DNA of 40,820 nucleotides from Gammaproteobacteria bacterium HGW-Gammaproteobacteria-3 (GTDB taxonomy: Bacteria; Pseudomonadota; Gammaproteobacteria; Methylococcales; Methylomonadaceae), in contig PGZD01000068.1 in NCBI GenBank assembly GCA_002843155.1, positions 1 to 40,820 of the forward strand, given 5' to 3'. Every line of letters begins with the position of its first letter. The stretch's first letter is position 1. Positions 12,013-39,164 of this stretch are shown piece after piece. A program made the position numbers and the translations under genes. Under the pieces are notes generated by a model, which searched no databases, was not told where the DNA came from, and saw only the letters and a program-made list of their open reading frames with translations.

Positions 12013-12066
12013 TAGCTACGATTTTTTTTATCTCTCAGGGTTCCATTTCACTTGTCAGTCCAGCCC

Positions 12067-13332
12067 ATGAAAAATATTAACCGATTACTTGCGCTCTCGA
12101 CCCTCGCCAGTTTTATTTCGGGCTGCGCCAGTTTCGGCAAAGGTATTGCCGAAGCTTATTTTGAAAAACAAGAGACCGCAGATACTCGGGTTTGCGAAGT
12201 TTTCGGCAGACCTTTCAAAGGTATAATGCCTTACCTGGAAAACCCGCAAGGAAAAATGAAAGTCTTGATGGTGCATGGAGTCGGCGACCATCTGCCGGGC
12301 TATTCTACACAATTCGTCGAGAAACTGGCGAAAGAACTGCAATTAAACGTCCGCGCCAAGCGCGCCAAAAACATTGCTTTGACCGACCCTCTGGATACTT
12401 CAAAAAAACTCGGTAACTTAAGGGTTCAAAGGTTGCTCAACAAAGCCAGGACTAAAGAGTTGTTGTTTTATGAATTGACCTGGTCCGAGATTACGGCGAA
12501 AGAAAAAGCCGTACTGGCTTATGACAATTCGGGAGAATATTCATTTCGCCGCGCCCAAGTCAATGATCTGTTAAAAAAATTTTCCAACGATACCGGTCCC
12601 GACCCGATTATTTACCTCGGCGACAGCCGCGAGGATATTCTGATTGCGTTCACCCAGTCTTTTTGCTGGATGATCAACGGCAAATGGCAAGATTTGCCGG
12701 ACGGCGTCAGTCAGGGCTGTACTTTTGACAACCCGCAGGCCGTGAATAATTTACATAACGACCAGTATGCTTTTATTTCGCACAGCCTCGGCAGCCGAAT
12801 TACCATAGACGGTATGCAGCGCATCGCTGCCTTTTTTGGCGACAGCAGTTTCCGGCCTGAGCTAAAAAGACCTCGGGAGCTGGTTCAGGCTTTACGGGAA
12901 AAGGAAATTCCGCTTTATATGATGTCCAATCAGCTGCCGATGCTGCAATTGGGCCGCAAACTGCCGGAAGTCAACGGACAAAAGGATGCCTACTGTACCC
13001 CGGGGGGGTCACATTATAACGACCGGATGGTCAGTAAAACCTCGATCATCGCTTTCAGTGATCCTAACGACTTACTGAGTTATGCCGTGCCGCAAGGCTT
13101 TGTCGAAAAATACCTGGATTCAAGGCTTTGCATCGACGCCACCAATATCAACATCAATGTCGCCACTATCTTTGACGCTTTTGGCATGGGTAAAATGGCC
13201 AATCCGTTAGATGCCCATATCGGCTACGACACCGATGACAGAGTGGTCGCAATGATTGCTCAAGGCATTGGCAATGGCCATACCGCCAAAATCGTCAACG
13301 AAAAATGCAGTTGGGTGGAAACCATCGATTGA
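12067..13332 (+). CDS. Lipoprotein with alpha/beta-hydrolase (esterase-like) fold
   Basis: A 421-residue predicted lipoprotein. The signal peptide ends in a lipobox (ISGC, Cys20). The mature part shows alpha/beta-hydrolase features: an oxyanion-type motif VHGVGDH at residues 69-75 and a nucleophile elbow SHSLGS with the candidate Ser240, where the usual first Gly of GxSxG is Ser. A later Asp (FSDPNDLLSY) and a C-terminal His (HIGYDTDDR or NGHTAK) could complete the triad. A lipase/esterase activity in the periplasm or at the outer membrane is inferred; the substrate is unknown. ATG 12067 is preferred to an upstream TTG (12052) because it yields a clean signal peptide. It ends 10 bp from the convergent kdsB stop. 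Confidence 0.75.
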   Translation: MKNINRLLALSTLASFISGCASFGKGIAEAYFEKQETADTRVCEVFGRPFKGIMPYLENPQGKMKVLMVHGVGDHLPGYSTQFVEKLAKELQLNVRAKRAKNIALTDPLDTSKKLGNLRVQRLLNKARTKELLFYELTWSEITAKEKAVLAYDNSGEYSFRRAQVNDLLKKFSNDTGPDPIIYLGDSREDILIAFTQSFCWMINGKWQDLPDGVSQGCTFDNPQAVNNLHNDQYAFISHSLGSRITIDGMQRIAAFFGDSSFRPELKRPRELVQALREKEIPLYMMSNQLPMLQLGRKLPEVNGQKDAYCTPGGSHYNDRMVSKTSIIAFSDPNDLLSYAVPQGFVEKYLDSRLCIDATNININVATIFDAFGMGKMANPLDAHIGYDTDDRVVAMIAQGIGNGHTAKIVNEKCSWVETID

Positions 13333-34462: not shown

Positions 34463-36112
34463 ATGAATCATAACGACACGGTTTTTAGCTCAAAAAAATC
34501 TATTTATGCAATATTGATTATCATGTCGGTATTGTCCTTGAGGCAAATCGATGACGCCAGTCTGGGTTATCCTGATGCCGATAGAATATTAATGGATGGG
34601 GTCTTTCTGCTGGATTTTATCAGCGACTTTCCCATTACACATATTTACCAATACACCCTCAATTATTTTGGGCAATACCCCGCCTTGAGTATTGGTTATC
34701 GCCCACCTTTTTTTCCATTGCTGGAAGCGATTTTTAACGGTGTTTTCGGCGTCAACATGTGGAGCAGCCGTCTGGCTTTATTGACGTTTTATATCGTTGG
34801 CGTTAGTGCATGGTTTAATCTGATCAGCCGAATTTATAACGGCTCCCTGGCCTTTGCCGCATCACTGTTATTGGTTACCACGCCTTTTATTGCCAAATGG
34901 GGCTGGTATACCATGGCGGGGTTGCCCGTGCTTTCCATGGTATTGTTGACGGGTTATTTATTTTATCGCTATACGGAAACCGATAAACCTTCTTATTTAT
35001 ATCAAACGGCCATCGTCTTTAGTTTAGCGTGCTGGACAAAACAAACGGCTGTTTTTATGGGACTTTGGTTTATTATTTTTGTGCTGCTGCAAGGAAATTT
35101 ATCGACCTATGTAAAAAGGCAAGAATTATGGTTATCCATGGCCATCATAATAATACTGCTGGCGCCTTTGGCGGCTATAACTTTATGGCTGGGAAAACAA
35201 AATATTGCCCAATCGATCGGTCAGTCTGAAGGGCATTATCATTTAAGCCGCTTAAGCTGGAATAACCTTACACTGCATTTCAGGACACTTTATAAATACC
35301 ATTTAACCTTGCCGGTACTGAGTTTGAGCTTTATTGGAATGTTGGCGGCGCTTGTGCAACGGGATAAAAAAACATTTTTTCCTTTGTCTTTATTGCTGGC
35401 GACCTATCTTTTCTTTACTTATCTGGTCGGAAAGAATGAACGCTATCCCATATTCTGGATACCCGTTTTTTGTTTGTTTGCAACGCTGCCTCTTTATTAT
35501 TTAAGAAATAAAGTCCTTACTTATTGGCTGATGCTGTCCGTGATTTTAGGTGTATCCGTATTTCAGATAAACAGCATTTATAAAATCAAGCCTAATTTTG
35601 CCACAGGTTATGCGGATGCTGCCGCTTTTGTACTGGCTAACCAGCAAGTACCCACGGTTTTTTTCGATGGTTACAATAACGGGTATTTTACCTATTTCAT
35701 GCGGGCATTGGATGAGAGTGAATCAACTTATGTACTGCGCGCCGATAAATTATTGTCATCTTCATCGATATCATCCAAGCAATGGCTCGAAGTCCATGCC
35801 CATTCAACGGACGATATCAAAAAAATACTGGATGATTATGGTGTTGATCTGGTTGTCGTCGAAAGCCGTGACGTTTCGGACATAGATATTCATCGACAGT
35901 TCCGGCAATTCTTGAAAAACGGGCCTTTTAAGTTATTGAAAACAATAGCTGTTGACAGTAACCGCCCGCCATTAAAAAATCAAAAATTATTGATATACAG
36001 ATACCTTGACAGACCACCGGCTTCCAAAGGTTATATAACTTTACGTCTGCCCGTGGTCGGGCAAACTATTAAAGTCCCGGTAAAAAACAGACCCATCAAC
36101 AGTGAGAATTGA
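34463..36112 (+). CDS. GT-C type glycosyltransferase (ArnT/PMT-like, family 39)
   Basis: A 549-residue integral membrane protein with about eleven helices and a C-terminal soluble domain of some 160 residues. The organisation, an acidic pair in the first periplasmic loop (YPDADRILMDG) and the segment IGYRPPFFPLLEAIFNGVFG match lipid-phosphate-sugar-dependent GT-C enzymes (dolichyl/undecaprenyl-phosphate sugar mannosyl- or arabinosyl-transferases). It would move a sugar from undecaprenyl phosphate to a periplasmic acceptor. The gene overlaps the next frame and is followed within 8 bp by a DPM1-like GT2, the likely supplier of its lipid-linked donor. The base composition is more A+T-rich than its chromosomal neighbours, hinting at acquisition. 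Confidence 0.8.
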   Translation: MNHNDTVFSSKKSIYAILIIMSVLSLRQIDDASLGYPDADRILMDGVFLLDFISDFPITHIYQYTLNYFGQYPALSIGYRPPFFPLLEAIFNGVFGVNMWSSRLALLTFYIVGVSAWFNLISRIYNGSLAFAASLLLVTTPFIAKWGWYTMAGLPVLSMVLLTGYLFYRYTETDKPSYLYQTAIVFSLACWTKQTAVFMGLWFIIFVLLQGNLSTYVKRQELWLSMAIIIILLAPLAAITLWLGKQNIAQSIGQSEGHYHLSRLSWNNLTLHFRTLYKYHLTLPVLSLSFIGMLAALVQRDKKTFFPLSLLLATYLFFTYLVGKNERYPIFWIPVFCLFATLPLYYLRNKVLTYWLMLSVILGVSVFQINSIYKIKPNFATGYADAAAFVLANQQVPTVFFDGYNNGYFTYFMRALDESESTYVLRADKLLSSSSISSKQWLEVHAHSTDDIKKILDDYGVDLVVVESRDVSDIDIHRQFRQFLKNGPFKLLKTIAVDSNRPPLKNQKLLIYRYLDRPPASKGYITLRLPVVGQTIKVPVKNRPINSEN

Positions 36113-36119
36113 CGCAACC

Positions 36120-37070
36120 ATGAAACTGATAGTGCAAATTCCCTGCTATAACGAAGAGCATACACTGCCTGAAACGATCGCCGATATTCCGCGCCAGATA
36201 GAGGGGGTCGATAAGATTGAAATTCTGATTATCGACGATGGCAGTACCGATCGGACGGTAGAAGTCGCCAAAGAACTCGGCGTCGATCATATTATTCGTA
36301 ACAAGAATAATCTCGGGCTTGCCCGAAGCTTTCGCAAAGGCATGGATGAATGTCTTAAACGCGATGCGGATATTATCGTCAATACCGATGGCGATAATCA
36401 ATATTTTGGTGCGGATATCAGCAAATTAGTCGCGCCTATCGTTAACGGTACGGCCGATCTTGTGGTAGGCGACAGGCAAACCAGTAAGATTCCACATTTT
36501 TCTCCGCTTAAAAAACTGTTGCAAAAATTAGGCAGCGCCACCGTGCGTAAGTTATCGGGAACCACCGTGCCTGATACGGTAAGCGGTTTCAGGGCATTTT
36601 CCAGGGATGCTGCCATTCGCCTGAATATTATTTCTTCTTTCAGCTATACCATAGAAACCATCATTCAAGCCGGTAAGAAACACATGGCGATAGTATCGGT
36701 TCCGGTTAGAACCAATCCAAAAACCCGGGACTCCCGATTATTTAAAAGCATCCCGTCATTTATCGAGCGGCAGTTATCGAGCATGATACGCATGTATCTC
36801 ATGTATCAGCCTTTACGGTTTTTTATCTATATCGGTACTTTACTGATACTGACAGGTCTCGTACCCATAGTTCGCTTTCTGGTATTTTATTATTCAGGTG
36901 ATGGCAGTGGTCATATACAGTCGCTGATTCTCGGCGGAGTTTTTTTATTGATGGGCTTTATTACTTATGTCATAGGAATGCTGGCGGACTTGATGAATTT
37001 CAATCGACAGTTATTGGAAGCGACATTGGAAAAAGTTCGCAGGATTGAACTTGAAAAAGAAAGTAAATAA
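36120..37070 (+). CDS. DPM1/GtrB-like family 2 glycosyltransferase
   Basis: A 316-residue enzyme that probably attaches a sugar from a nucleotide donor to undecaprenyl phosphate on the cytoplasmic face. The GT-A fold starts with QIPCYNEEHTLPETI, then ILIIDDGSTDRTVEVAKELG and IIVNTDGDNQYFGADI (the DxD-like metal motif is TDGDNQY). GFRAFSRDAAIRLNIIS follows, and two C-terminal membrane helices (about residues 225-300) anchor it. ATG 36120 is preferred; an upstream GTG (36102) overlaps the preceding gene. The pairing with the GT-C gene before it is the classic donor/transfer couple of polyprenyl-phosphate glycosylation. Confidence 0.9.
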   Translation: MKLIVQIPCYNEEHTLPETIADIPRQIEGVDKIEILIIDDGSTDRTVEVAKELGVDHIIRNKNNLGLARSFRKGMDECLKRDADIIVNTDGDNQYFGADISKLVAPIVNGTADLVVGDRQTSKIPHFSPLKKLLQKLGSATVRKLSGTTVPDTVSGFRAFSRDAAIRLNIISSFSYTIETIIQAGKKHMAIVSVPVRTNPKTRDSRLFKSIPSFIERQLSSMIRMYLMYQPLRFFIYIGTLLILTGLVPIVRFLVFYYSGDGSGHIQSLILGGVFLLMGFITYVIGMLADLMNFNRQLLEATLEKVRRIELEKESK

Positions 37071-37139: not shown

Positions 37140-39164
37140 ATGTTTTTAGTAACCCTGGAAAAACTGCTATGGCGTTACCGGCGGCTGGTTACTGTATTAA
37201 TCGTCATTTCAATTGTCCAATTTTTTGAGCTTGCCCTTTTACAAGTCAAATACGATATTTTTACCGGTGGGTTTCTACAGCCTTTCTCTTACCAGTCCTG
37301 GTTGGAAAGAGGACTGTTTCTGCTACTTTCTTTCTGGTATGACTTTGTCTTTTTCGGTGTTTTGGCCAGCCTTTGGTTCCATGCTGCCGACCGGCTGAAT
37401 AAGTTCGGCATTCTGATTTATTACAGTTTCACCGTGCTGATATGGCTGGCAATGGGTTTCTGGCTGGGCCTTAAATTCAAGGTGCTGTCTTATTTCAACG
37501 ATACACTCAATTATCAGATTATCAGTAATCTTGGCGGTGGCAGCTTAAAACGGGGCTTGCTTTATGCCACCAATGAAATTGCCTTGTTCACCGGCATTAT
37601 GGCGATTGTTATCATTGCTTTTGTTTTGAGTGCCCGGATTTTTAAACAGTATCACTACAAGCGGGATTATCATCGGCGAATTGCACCAGCGGGCGCTTTT
37701 AAATGGTTGCTGTTGATGACAGTATTTCTGACTCCGCTGCTGACGTATAACATCTCCGATTACGCATTCTTGCGTTATGGCCTGGAAAAAAAAACCACTT
37801 ATCGGCTGATCAGTTCGGGCCTGGATTTTTTGACAGACTTTGACGACGACGGTCACGGTCTGTTCTTTTATCCCAAAGACACGGCCCTGTTTGACGGGCA
37901 TATTTATCCGGGCGCTCTGGACATTCCTGGTAACGGTATCGATGAAGACGGTCTGCTGGGTGATGCCAAAATCATCCCGCTGGCACCCGATCCTCTAAAA
38001 GCTATAAAGCCTCGCTCCGGCAAGCATATTGTATTGATCGTTCTGGAAACCGCGCGCGTCGATTTATTGACCCAACAAGTCAATGGCCGTTATGTCGCGC
38101 CGGTCATGCGCGAAATAGCGCGTACCGGTACTGCGGCTGAATACGCGTACAGCCATACCGGTTATACGACAACTTCGCTGACAGCATTGTTTAATCGCGA
38201 GCTGATTCATGACGATAACCGCATCAGACTGATCGATTTTTTGCAGGAGGCAGGTTACGGCATTTCAATCATTTCGGGGCAAGATGAATCGTTTGGCGAT
38301 ATCGCCACGCATACCGGCATGAATAAAAAAGGCGTGTATTATTTTGATGCGCGGGTCGCCATTGCCGACCGGGTTTTTCCCAGCAAGGATGCGGGTAGTC
38401 TAAGGCTCAGCGAAGAACGTGTAGTGGAACAATTTCAGCAGCGCTTCAGTGAACTTGATCTGCAAACTCCGCAGTTTATTTATTTAAACTTTCAGGCGGC
38501 GCATTTTCCTTATTCGCATCCTGCCATGCAAAAAAGGCTGATAAAAGAATTCATACCCCGCCCCGAGATTCTGGCGGAAAATCGCGACCGGGTCGCCGAC
38601 ACCTACTGGAATGCCATTGCCAATGCCGACTGGGCGGTGGGGCAGGTGGTCGAAACATTAAAAAAACACAAACTCTACGAGGACACAACTTTAGTCATTT
38701 TGGGTGATCACGGCGAGTCATTGTTCGAAGACGGCTTTCTGGGCCATGGCCATGCGATGAACGATGCACAAACGCATATCCCTTTGTTGTTCAATGATCC
38801 AAATCTTCAAATAAAGCAGGCGATAGGGCAGATCGATGTCGCGGAAATGGCGATTCGCTCGGCTTTTGGCCTCTCCAATCGGTGGCTGGATACGGATCAT
38901 TCAGTGTTTCAATTGGTGGGCAATTTGACTTTTCCGGTGTTAATCGGGTATGTCAAATACGGCGGTGACCGTATTGTTTTTGATTTCCGCTCCCAGCGGG
39001 TTTTTTTAAATACTCTAAATCGCTGGGAAACTTATCAGGCATTGCTGGAGAATCCGGCACAAAGCGAGCGTATCAGTCATTTGCTCAGCGAATGGGAAAC
39101 CCTGAAATGGCATGAGTTTGATTTTCGTCAGCAAAGTCAAAGTAAACAGAAGCCTGGGCACTGA
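37140..39164 (+). CDS. Membrane-bound sulfatase-fold transferase/hydrolase with an embedded MopE-like motif
   Basis: A 674-residue protein with about five membrane helices (residues 15-210) and a periplasmic alkaline-phosphatase/sulfatase-fold domain like LtaS, phosphoethanolamine and phosphoglycerol transferases. Metal-site residues visible are Glu303 (VLETARVDLL), a Thr nucleophile candidate in GYTTTSLTALF (343-346), GDHGES (522-527) and GHGH (535-538). Between the two parts, residues 233-275 contain DFDDDGHG, HIYPGALDIPGNGIDEDG and LLGD, which resemble the acidic MopE repeat found in a methanotroph copper protein and in many secreted proteins. This insert probably binds a metal such as calcium or copper. 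It follows the GT2 gene by 69 bp and likely modifies an envelope lipid or glycan. Confidence 0.82.
   Translation: MFLVTLEKLLWRYRRLVTVLIVISIVQFFELALLQVKYDIFTGGFLQPFSYQSWLERGLFLLLSFWYDFVFFGVLASLWFHAADRLNKFGILIYYSFTVLIWLAMGFWLGLKFKVLSYFNDTLNYQIISNLGGGSLKRGLLYATNEIALFTGIMAIVIIAFVLSARIFKQYHYKRDYHRRIAPAGAFKWLLLMTVFLTPLLTYNISDYAFLRYGLEKKTTYRLISSGLDFLTDFDDDGHGLFFYPKDTALFDGHIYPGALDIPGNGIDEDGLLGDAKIIPLAPDPLKAIKPRSGKHIVLIVLETARVDLLTQQVNGRYVAPVMREIARTGTAAEYAYSHTGYTTTSLTALFNRELIHDDNRIRLIDFLQEAGYGISIISGQDESFGDIATHTGMNKKGVYYFDARVAIADRVFPSKDAGSLRLSEERVVEQFQQRFSELDLQTPQFIYLNFQAAHFPYSHPAMQKRLIKEFIPRPEILAENRDRVADTYWNAIANADWAVGQVVETLKKHKLYEDTTLVILGDHGESLFEDGFLGHGHAMNDAQTHIPLLFNDPNLQIKQAIGQIDVAEMAIRSAFGLSNRWLDTDHSVFQLVGNLTFPVLIGYVKYGGDRIVFDFRSQRVFLNTLNRWETYQALLENPAQSERISHLLSEWETLKWHEFDFRQQSQSKQKPGH

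Follow-up and report, generated by a model that had tools for sequence, protein, structure and literature searches.

The window analyzed here is a stretch of DNA of 40,820 nucleotides from Gammaproteobacteria bacterium HGW-Gammaproteobacteria-3, a member of the Methylomonadaceae (contig PGZD01000068.1). It carries the gene for a predicted membrane enzyme of 674 amino acids (aa), preceded on the same strand by two glycosyltransferase genes:

34463 to 36112, + strand, PMT_2-type membrane glycosyltransferase, upstream, with an 11-base overlap with the next gene (PF13231, E 2.5e-16)
36102 to 37070, + strand, family 2 glycosyltransferase directly upstream of the enzyme gene (PF00535, E 7e-28)
37140 to 39164, + strand, 674-aa membrane sulfatase-fold enzyme of the phospho-group transferase type, as predicted from open reading frame, Pfam, AlphaFold2 and fold matches

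The family 2 glycosyltransferase gene and the enzyme gene are separated by 69 bases, and by type the three genes presumably make up an ArnC/ArnT/EptA-like trio. Elsewhere in the window two long open reading frames, at 1181-2359 and 12052-13329, are without a Pfam match at E <= 1e-5. The enzyme itself has no prior characterization, and the joint of its membrane and catalytic parts is a 43-residue acidic loop. Its main parts, and the residues predicted to form its active site, are as follows:

37179 to 37760, + strand, five-helix transmembrane part, aa 14-207 (AlphaFold2 helices; aa 111-190 of low confidence)
38022 to 38816, + strand, PF00884 sulfatase-fold catalytic domain, aa 295-559 (E 9.4e-30, 104.4 bits against a cut-off of 25)
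38046 to 38048, + strand, E303, predicted active-site metal ligand, invariant in alignment A2
38166 to 38168, + strand, T343, predicted nucleophile, invariant in A2
38706 to 38711, + strand, D523-H524, predicted active-site metal ligands, invariant in A2

The full-length AlphaFold2 model has a mean pLDDT of 87.1 and a pTM of 0.85, with long helices at aa 14-38, 54-85, 91-118, 144-170 and 185-207, the membrane region of aa 111-190 being modeled at low confidence (pLDDT blocks of 40-77). The first strand of the catalytic domain spans aa 296-302. Foldseek ranked PbgA/YejM, EptA and LtaS at the top, with LtaP and EptC also among the fold matches. In VIA-align comparisons the periplasmic domain of YejM (6vc7) gave Z 28.6 with an rmsd of 3.7 over 316 aligned residues and 13% identity, LtaP (4uop) Z 28.0 with an rmsd of 3.7 over 339 residues, and LtaS (4uoo) Z 26.6 with an rmsd of 3.8 over 339 residues. 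The transferase group as a whole fell at Z 25-29, and because plain sulfatases fell in the same range, with a top value of 29.0, the fold cannot choose between transferase and sulfatase. Membership in the FGly sulfatases was rejected, the CxPxR-type nucleophile being absent and the aligned position being Thr343 in all 43 relatives of alignment A2. E303, T343, H455, D523, H524 and H536 are likewise invariant (43/43), at positions which we take to be those of the metal ligands and the threonine nucleophile of EptA, MCR and LtaS. No NCBIfam model matched the window protein at its cut-off. Five transmembrane helices, a threonine nucleophile and a Glu/Asp/His site, as in EptA, MCR and LtaS, are found by model and alignment, with residue roles presumed from those enzymes and the helices read subject to the low-confidence region of aa 111-190. 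We infer that the predicted enzyme adds a lipid-derived phospho-group to an extracellular or envelope glycan.

Between the two domains lies the acidic motif:

37836 to 37964, + strand, 43-residue acidic motif, aa 233-275, the Cys-free form of the PF11617/MopE unit (alignments and profiles)
37836 to 37853, + strand, DxDxDG calcium-type loop, aa 233-238 (D233, D235, D237 and G238 in 41 of 41 motif rows)
37878 to 37880, + strand, D247, motif position 15, invariant; the next residue, T248, is the site of the first cysteine in the Cys form
37908 to 37952, + strand, PGALDIPGNGIDEDG, aa 257-271, bulk of the weak PF11617 match (254-270); G271 is the site of the second cysteine in the Cys form

An earlier note, made from the sequence alone, had drawn attention to this motif, and its coordinates agree exactly with those found here. 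Its placement of the motif between the transmembrane and catalytic domains is borne out by the AlphaFold2 model, in which the last membrane helix ends at residue 207 and the catalytic strand starts at 296. The 43 residues are gapless in 41 of the 43 relatives of A2, and D233, D235, D237, G238, D247, A259, P263, G271 and D275 are invariant in every motif-bearing row (41/41). When Cys-form motifs are included, D233, D235, D237, D247 and D275 remain invariant in 86 of 86 rows; some of these positions are set by the pattern used to select the 45 Cys-form rows. All 15 rows of a first, smaller alignment carry the motif as well. A2 omits several loci: L050, whose given range contains a stop; L054 and L065, whose frames are broken; L070-L073, as fragments or too distant; and L067 (by oversight), L075 and L076, in all three of which the motif is intact. 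L071 and L073 showed no motif when read.

In the full-length model residues 232-284 form neither helix nor strand, and the loop is modeled with confidence, block means of pLDDT over 231-280 being 92, 88, 90, 91 and 87. The motif folded alone (41 rows) reached blocks of only 58-68, which is of low confidence. Confident in context and weak alone, the loop appears from these models to be ordered but reliant on its protein context. Two relatives, L066 and L069, lack the motif as a whole block; they retain E303, T343, H455, D523, H524 and H536 but not H538, and they are nested within the Cys-free group of the tree, which implies one later loss. With their core catalytic residues kept, these two proteins may serve as a natural control for the motif.

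The earlier note had further proposed that the motif resembles the repeat of MopE, had suggested a search with the PF11617 profile as a check, and had named the lack of a profile match among the outcomes that would speak against it. At the Pfam cut-off this outcome formally applies, since the window protein alone stays below threshold, but the intermediates described below overturn it: PF11617 matches aa 254-270 at 13.7 bits and E 0.076, against a curated cut-off of 27 bits, and a 111-aa piece at 16.6 bits. Across the alignment, 32 of the 43 relatives match at E <= 1, the best at E 0.0029. The cysteine pair of PF11617 (DC ... DC) is replaced in the window protein by T248 and G271. A PF11617 search of the window's own genome gave no matches at E <= 10; because the window motif itself was missed, this search is insensitive to the Cys-free form. 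The match was re-established through intermediates that carry the cysteines. A profile of 45 Cys-form motifs, built from a pattern that fixes the cysteines, finds the window protein at 37.2 bits (E 5.5e-12 among 43 proteins) and has 41 matches in A2, each of at least 26.7 bits, whereas none of 2000 shuffled versions of the window motif exceeded 8.3 bits. Aligned by hhalign, the Cys-form and Cys-free profiles match with a probability of 99 over 43 of 43 columns. The Cys-form profile in turn finds residues 6-45 of MopE (2vov) in the PDB at E 9e-9 and, at 37.9 bits, L077, a MopE-like protein encoded in a different genome of the order; a mixed profile finds MopE 2vov at E 6.5e-11. The Cys-free profile reaches the same MopE-like protein at E 0.01 only, and MopE is absent among the 17 PDB matches at E <= 5 obtained with an 88-residue Cys-free alignment (A3). 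In that search a BH2092 protein ranked first (E 0.012-0.016), followed by dynein light chain 4A, plastin-2, calmodulin and others at E 0.1-4. The link to MopE is thus weak without the Cys-containing intermediates and is accepted because they bridge it. A chance resemblance is excluded by the shuffles together with the intermediates, and by sequence comparison the window motif is genuinely related to the MopE/PF11617 unit.

The Cys form was found in the phylum of a Myxococcales MAG (L071). Matches to the enzyme were present in 105 of the 140 genomes searched (E <= 1e-12), and among the matches listed many span the last membrane helix, the motif and the nucleophile. Thirty loci returned by the search were read, together with 36 regions selected for a match over the motif segment. 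All 36 of the latter are of the Cys form, which is not a rate because they were picked for that match. By pattern, the 30 loci divide into nine with the Cys form, seven with the Cys-free form and 14 with neither, some of the 30 being fragments, lacking membrane segments or matching in the catalytic part only; ten of the 14 (all save L104, L109, L110 and L116) were rechecked with looser patterns. In total 45 Cys-form proteins, all with predicted membrane segments, carry the 43-residue unit at the same place, their cysteines standing at positions 16 and 39 of the motif. Ten of these proteins were scanned whole, and PF00884 was found in all ten and PF11617 above its cut-off in eight. The combination of motif and membrane sulfatase fold is therefore not peculiar to the window protein.

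The two cysteines occur as a pair. Both are present in 40 of 89 motifs, neither in 49 and a single one in none, as collected with a pattern that, in the distant set, fixes several of the aspartates, leaves the cysteines, D15 and D43 free, and missed five Cys-form rows. On a tree calculated with the motif columns left out, the split between Cys and Cys-free forms is one change (SH-aLRT 100), and two quick trees, with the motif columns in and out, gave the same splits. Because the tree requires one change only, the pattern of the pair counts as one event and not as many. The both-or-none distribution is as expected for a disulfide joining positions 16 and 39 of the motif. As assigned by pattern, the first catalytic metal ligand of the Cys-form proteins is Asp in 40 of 45, Glu in three and unassigned in two, and it is Glu in the eight Cys-free rows of the same phylum set. 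The nucleophile of the Cys-form proteins, read by regular expression only, is Thr in 26 of 45, Ser in three, Ala in one and unassigned in 15, and one row has a CxPxR-like string.

The close family is found mostly in methanotrophs among the named hosts and is rare in wider samples. In a set of 101 genomes around and including that of the window, matches were obtained in 18, in G062 through no more than a short part of the catalytic domain. Named genome contigs, when scanned, yielded 50 loci, mostly from Methylococcales methanotrophs, the other hosts including Sedimenticola, a Nitrospira MAG, a Burkholderiales MAG, Kordiimonas, Sediminihaliea and an Acidobacteria MAG. L028 is the homologue in Methylotuvimicrobium buryatense 5G. 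We know of no special copper need in Sedimenticola, Kordiimonas or the Nitrospira and Acidobacteria MAG hosts. Matches were found in four of 369 genomes of the class (E <= 1e-25) and two of 398 of the phylum (E <= 1e-20), the window's own genome included in each count. Broken or partial gene copies occur at L022 and L023 (G036), L015 and L021 (G054), and L017 and L020 (G024), and in G036 a partial copy shares its contig with an intact one.

The gene neighborhood is not conserved as an operon with both upstream glycosyltransferases: a PMT_2 or family 2 match is present in only five of 52 loci (L025, L031, L054, L056 and L059), at 22-54% identity. The flanks elsewhere differ. An exosortase, an XrtA-type EpsB or an exosortase-A-associated O-glycosylation ligase cluster member lies in the flanks of 18 of 37 Methylococcales and nearby loci, a raw count made on one scanned representative per cluster, with flanks of unequal length. 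Among loci L024-L067, examples of such exosortase/XrtA exopolysaccharide genes near the enzyme gene are L065:8601-9578, L065:4371-5777 and L056:9181-10521. In the window no exosortase, XrtA-type EpsB or ligase member stands beside the enzyme; an exosortase gene of the same genome lies on a different contig (G000:C76).

The earlier suggestion of a metal motif stands insofar as the conserved positions, which are Asp, Asn and Glu, form what appears to be a metal-binding pattern; the copper implied by the likeness to MopE does not. According to one report (PMC3423442), the high-affinity Cu(I) site of MopE consists of His132, His203 and kynurenine-130, the N-terminal aspartate-rich piece of MopE* is invisible in crystals and is linked to weak Cu(II) binding only, and calcium stabilizes MopE* against proteolysis. 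The relation found here is limited to MopE* residues 6-45, which leaves all three copper ligands outside the related stretch and gives the motif no copper site of the MopE/CorA kind. Among the 41 Cys-free motifs none contains Cys and only eight contain any His; the window motif has His239 and His254, and position 239 is His in 2 of 41 only. A DxDxDG loop binds Ca2+ across many unrelated folds, as stated in a further report (PMC3123361). Because of the conserved Asp, Asn and Glu residues, the Ca2+ precedent of the DxDxDG loop and the location of the MopE copper ligands elsewhere, the metal held would most likely be Ca2+ and not copper. Acyloxyacyl hydrolase (AOAH), a lipase of unrelated fold, gave a weak match to the mixed profile over a DxDxD...DCNDSD..YPG stretch (E 0.04-0.1, not significant alone), in which its Ca2+ is presumably located. 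Calcium ion binding activity is stated for AOAH in PMC12898756, and by analogy the weak match would point the same way. The AOAH structures 5w7a, 5w78 and 5w7d contain a PF11617-like half motif and possibly are solved structures showing such a unit with its metal.

The analysis shows that the motif exists, is conserved, lies between the two domains, is related to PF11617 and MopE, and folds confidently in context. The loop is probably a structural calcium clamp at the membrane/catalytic joint of a membrane phospho-group transferase. The enzyme would be a five-helix inner-membrane protein with a periplasmic domain of the alkaline phosphatase superfamily, moving a phospho-group (phosphoethanolamine or phosphoglycerol, for example) from a lipid to a glycan or lipid. 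The conserved Asp, Asn and Glu side chains would most likely bind at least one Ca2+ ion, and such binding may stiffen the linker and set the catalytic domain relative to the membrane. In other relatives the apparent disulfide joining positions 16 and 39 would brace the same loop.

The earlier note had raised the possibility that the motif senses a metal or requires one for activity. The loop could be a true sensor of calcium or another divalent metal; transfer would then wait for periplasmic metal to occupy the site, and surface decoration would track the metal supply. The joint is a natural place for a switch, the five aspartates are invariant within the limit set by their selecting pattern, and a double mutant in the DxDxDG loop of PepX was inactive though folded, according to PMC10536834. 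The same paper reports, however, that the activity of PepX was not significantly affected by EDTA or excess Ca2+, the two motif-less relatives keep their core active site, and the observations fit stabilization as well as sensing; a sensor is unlikely. The acidic stretch could also be a metal-free linker conserved through packing on the catalytic domain, as its confident fold in context only and its loss as a block in L066 and L069 might suggest. Packing alone is disfavored because it does not predict the spacing of the invariant aspartates, which is that of known Ca2+ loops, or the recurrence of the pattern in the Cys form and in MopE, and such a linker is quite unlikely. A broader proposal, that the enzyme is a calcium-gated phospho-group transferase, a periplasmic switch coupling surface-glycan decoration to the supply of divalent cations in two separate lineages, one using metal only and the other metal plus a perhaps redox-sensitive disulfide, would be a long shot. 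Finally, a motif that binds copper like MopE and gives the enzyme a part in methanotroph copper economy is highly improbable: the relation to the aspartate-rich stretch of MopE*, the preponderance of methanotrophs among the named hosts and the two histidines of the window motif speak for it, but the MopE copper ligands lie elsewhere, His and Cys are scarce in the Cys-free motifs, and the motif occurs also in Sedimenticola, Kordiimonas and the Nitrospira and Acidobacteria MAGs.

As a probable structural clamp for calcium, the motif would be a deeply conserved metal-type element that many membrane enzymes, relatives of LtaS, EptA and YejM, carry at their joint. The "copper-binding" label of PF11617 is misleading for its use in membrane sulfatase-fold enzymes. 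Any Pfam scan of Cys-form proteins would reveal that PF11617 and PF00884 occur together in a single protein, and no paper pairing PF11617 with sulfatases was found in the open-access literature searched. What is new here is the Cys-free form of the motif in a methanotroph enzyme family. Cys-form, Cys-free and motif-less relatives together make a ready series with which to probe the function of the joint.

Compared with known systems, the window protein is like LtaS, EptA, MCR and YejM (PbgA) in its five transmembrane helices, its periplasmic alkaline-phosphatase-like domain and its Glu/Thr/Asp/His site; to our knowledge no PF11617-type unit occurs in any of these enzymes. With EF-hands, thrombospondin type 3 repeats and other Dx[DN]xDG calcium loops, which the earlier note had also invoked, the likeness consists of the first six residues of the motif. 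Membership in the EF-hands was rejected, since coil (232-284) stands in place of the second helix and position 12 is Y244, which is not acidic; the thrombospondin type 3 repeat is not among the Pfam families found at E <= 10, in a search whose HMMER filters drop weak matches. The PF11617 and PF00884 proteins of the L071 phylum share the membrane segments, the 43-residue unit and the catalytic domain, but they have cysteines at positions 16 and 39 and form a separate clade. With the N-terminal unit of MopE and with PF11617 the motif has in common the DxDxDG loop, the spaced aspartates, P-G-A-x-[DE], G-[IV]-D-x-[DN] and the final Asp. The window protein falls below the Pfam cut-off, and its family differs from them in having no cysteines and no copper-site residues and in a spacer three residues longer than that of the MopE-like protein L077.
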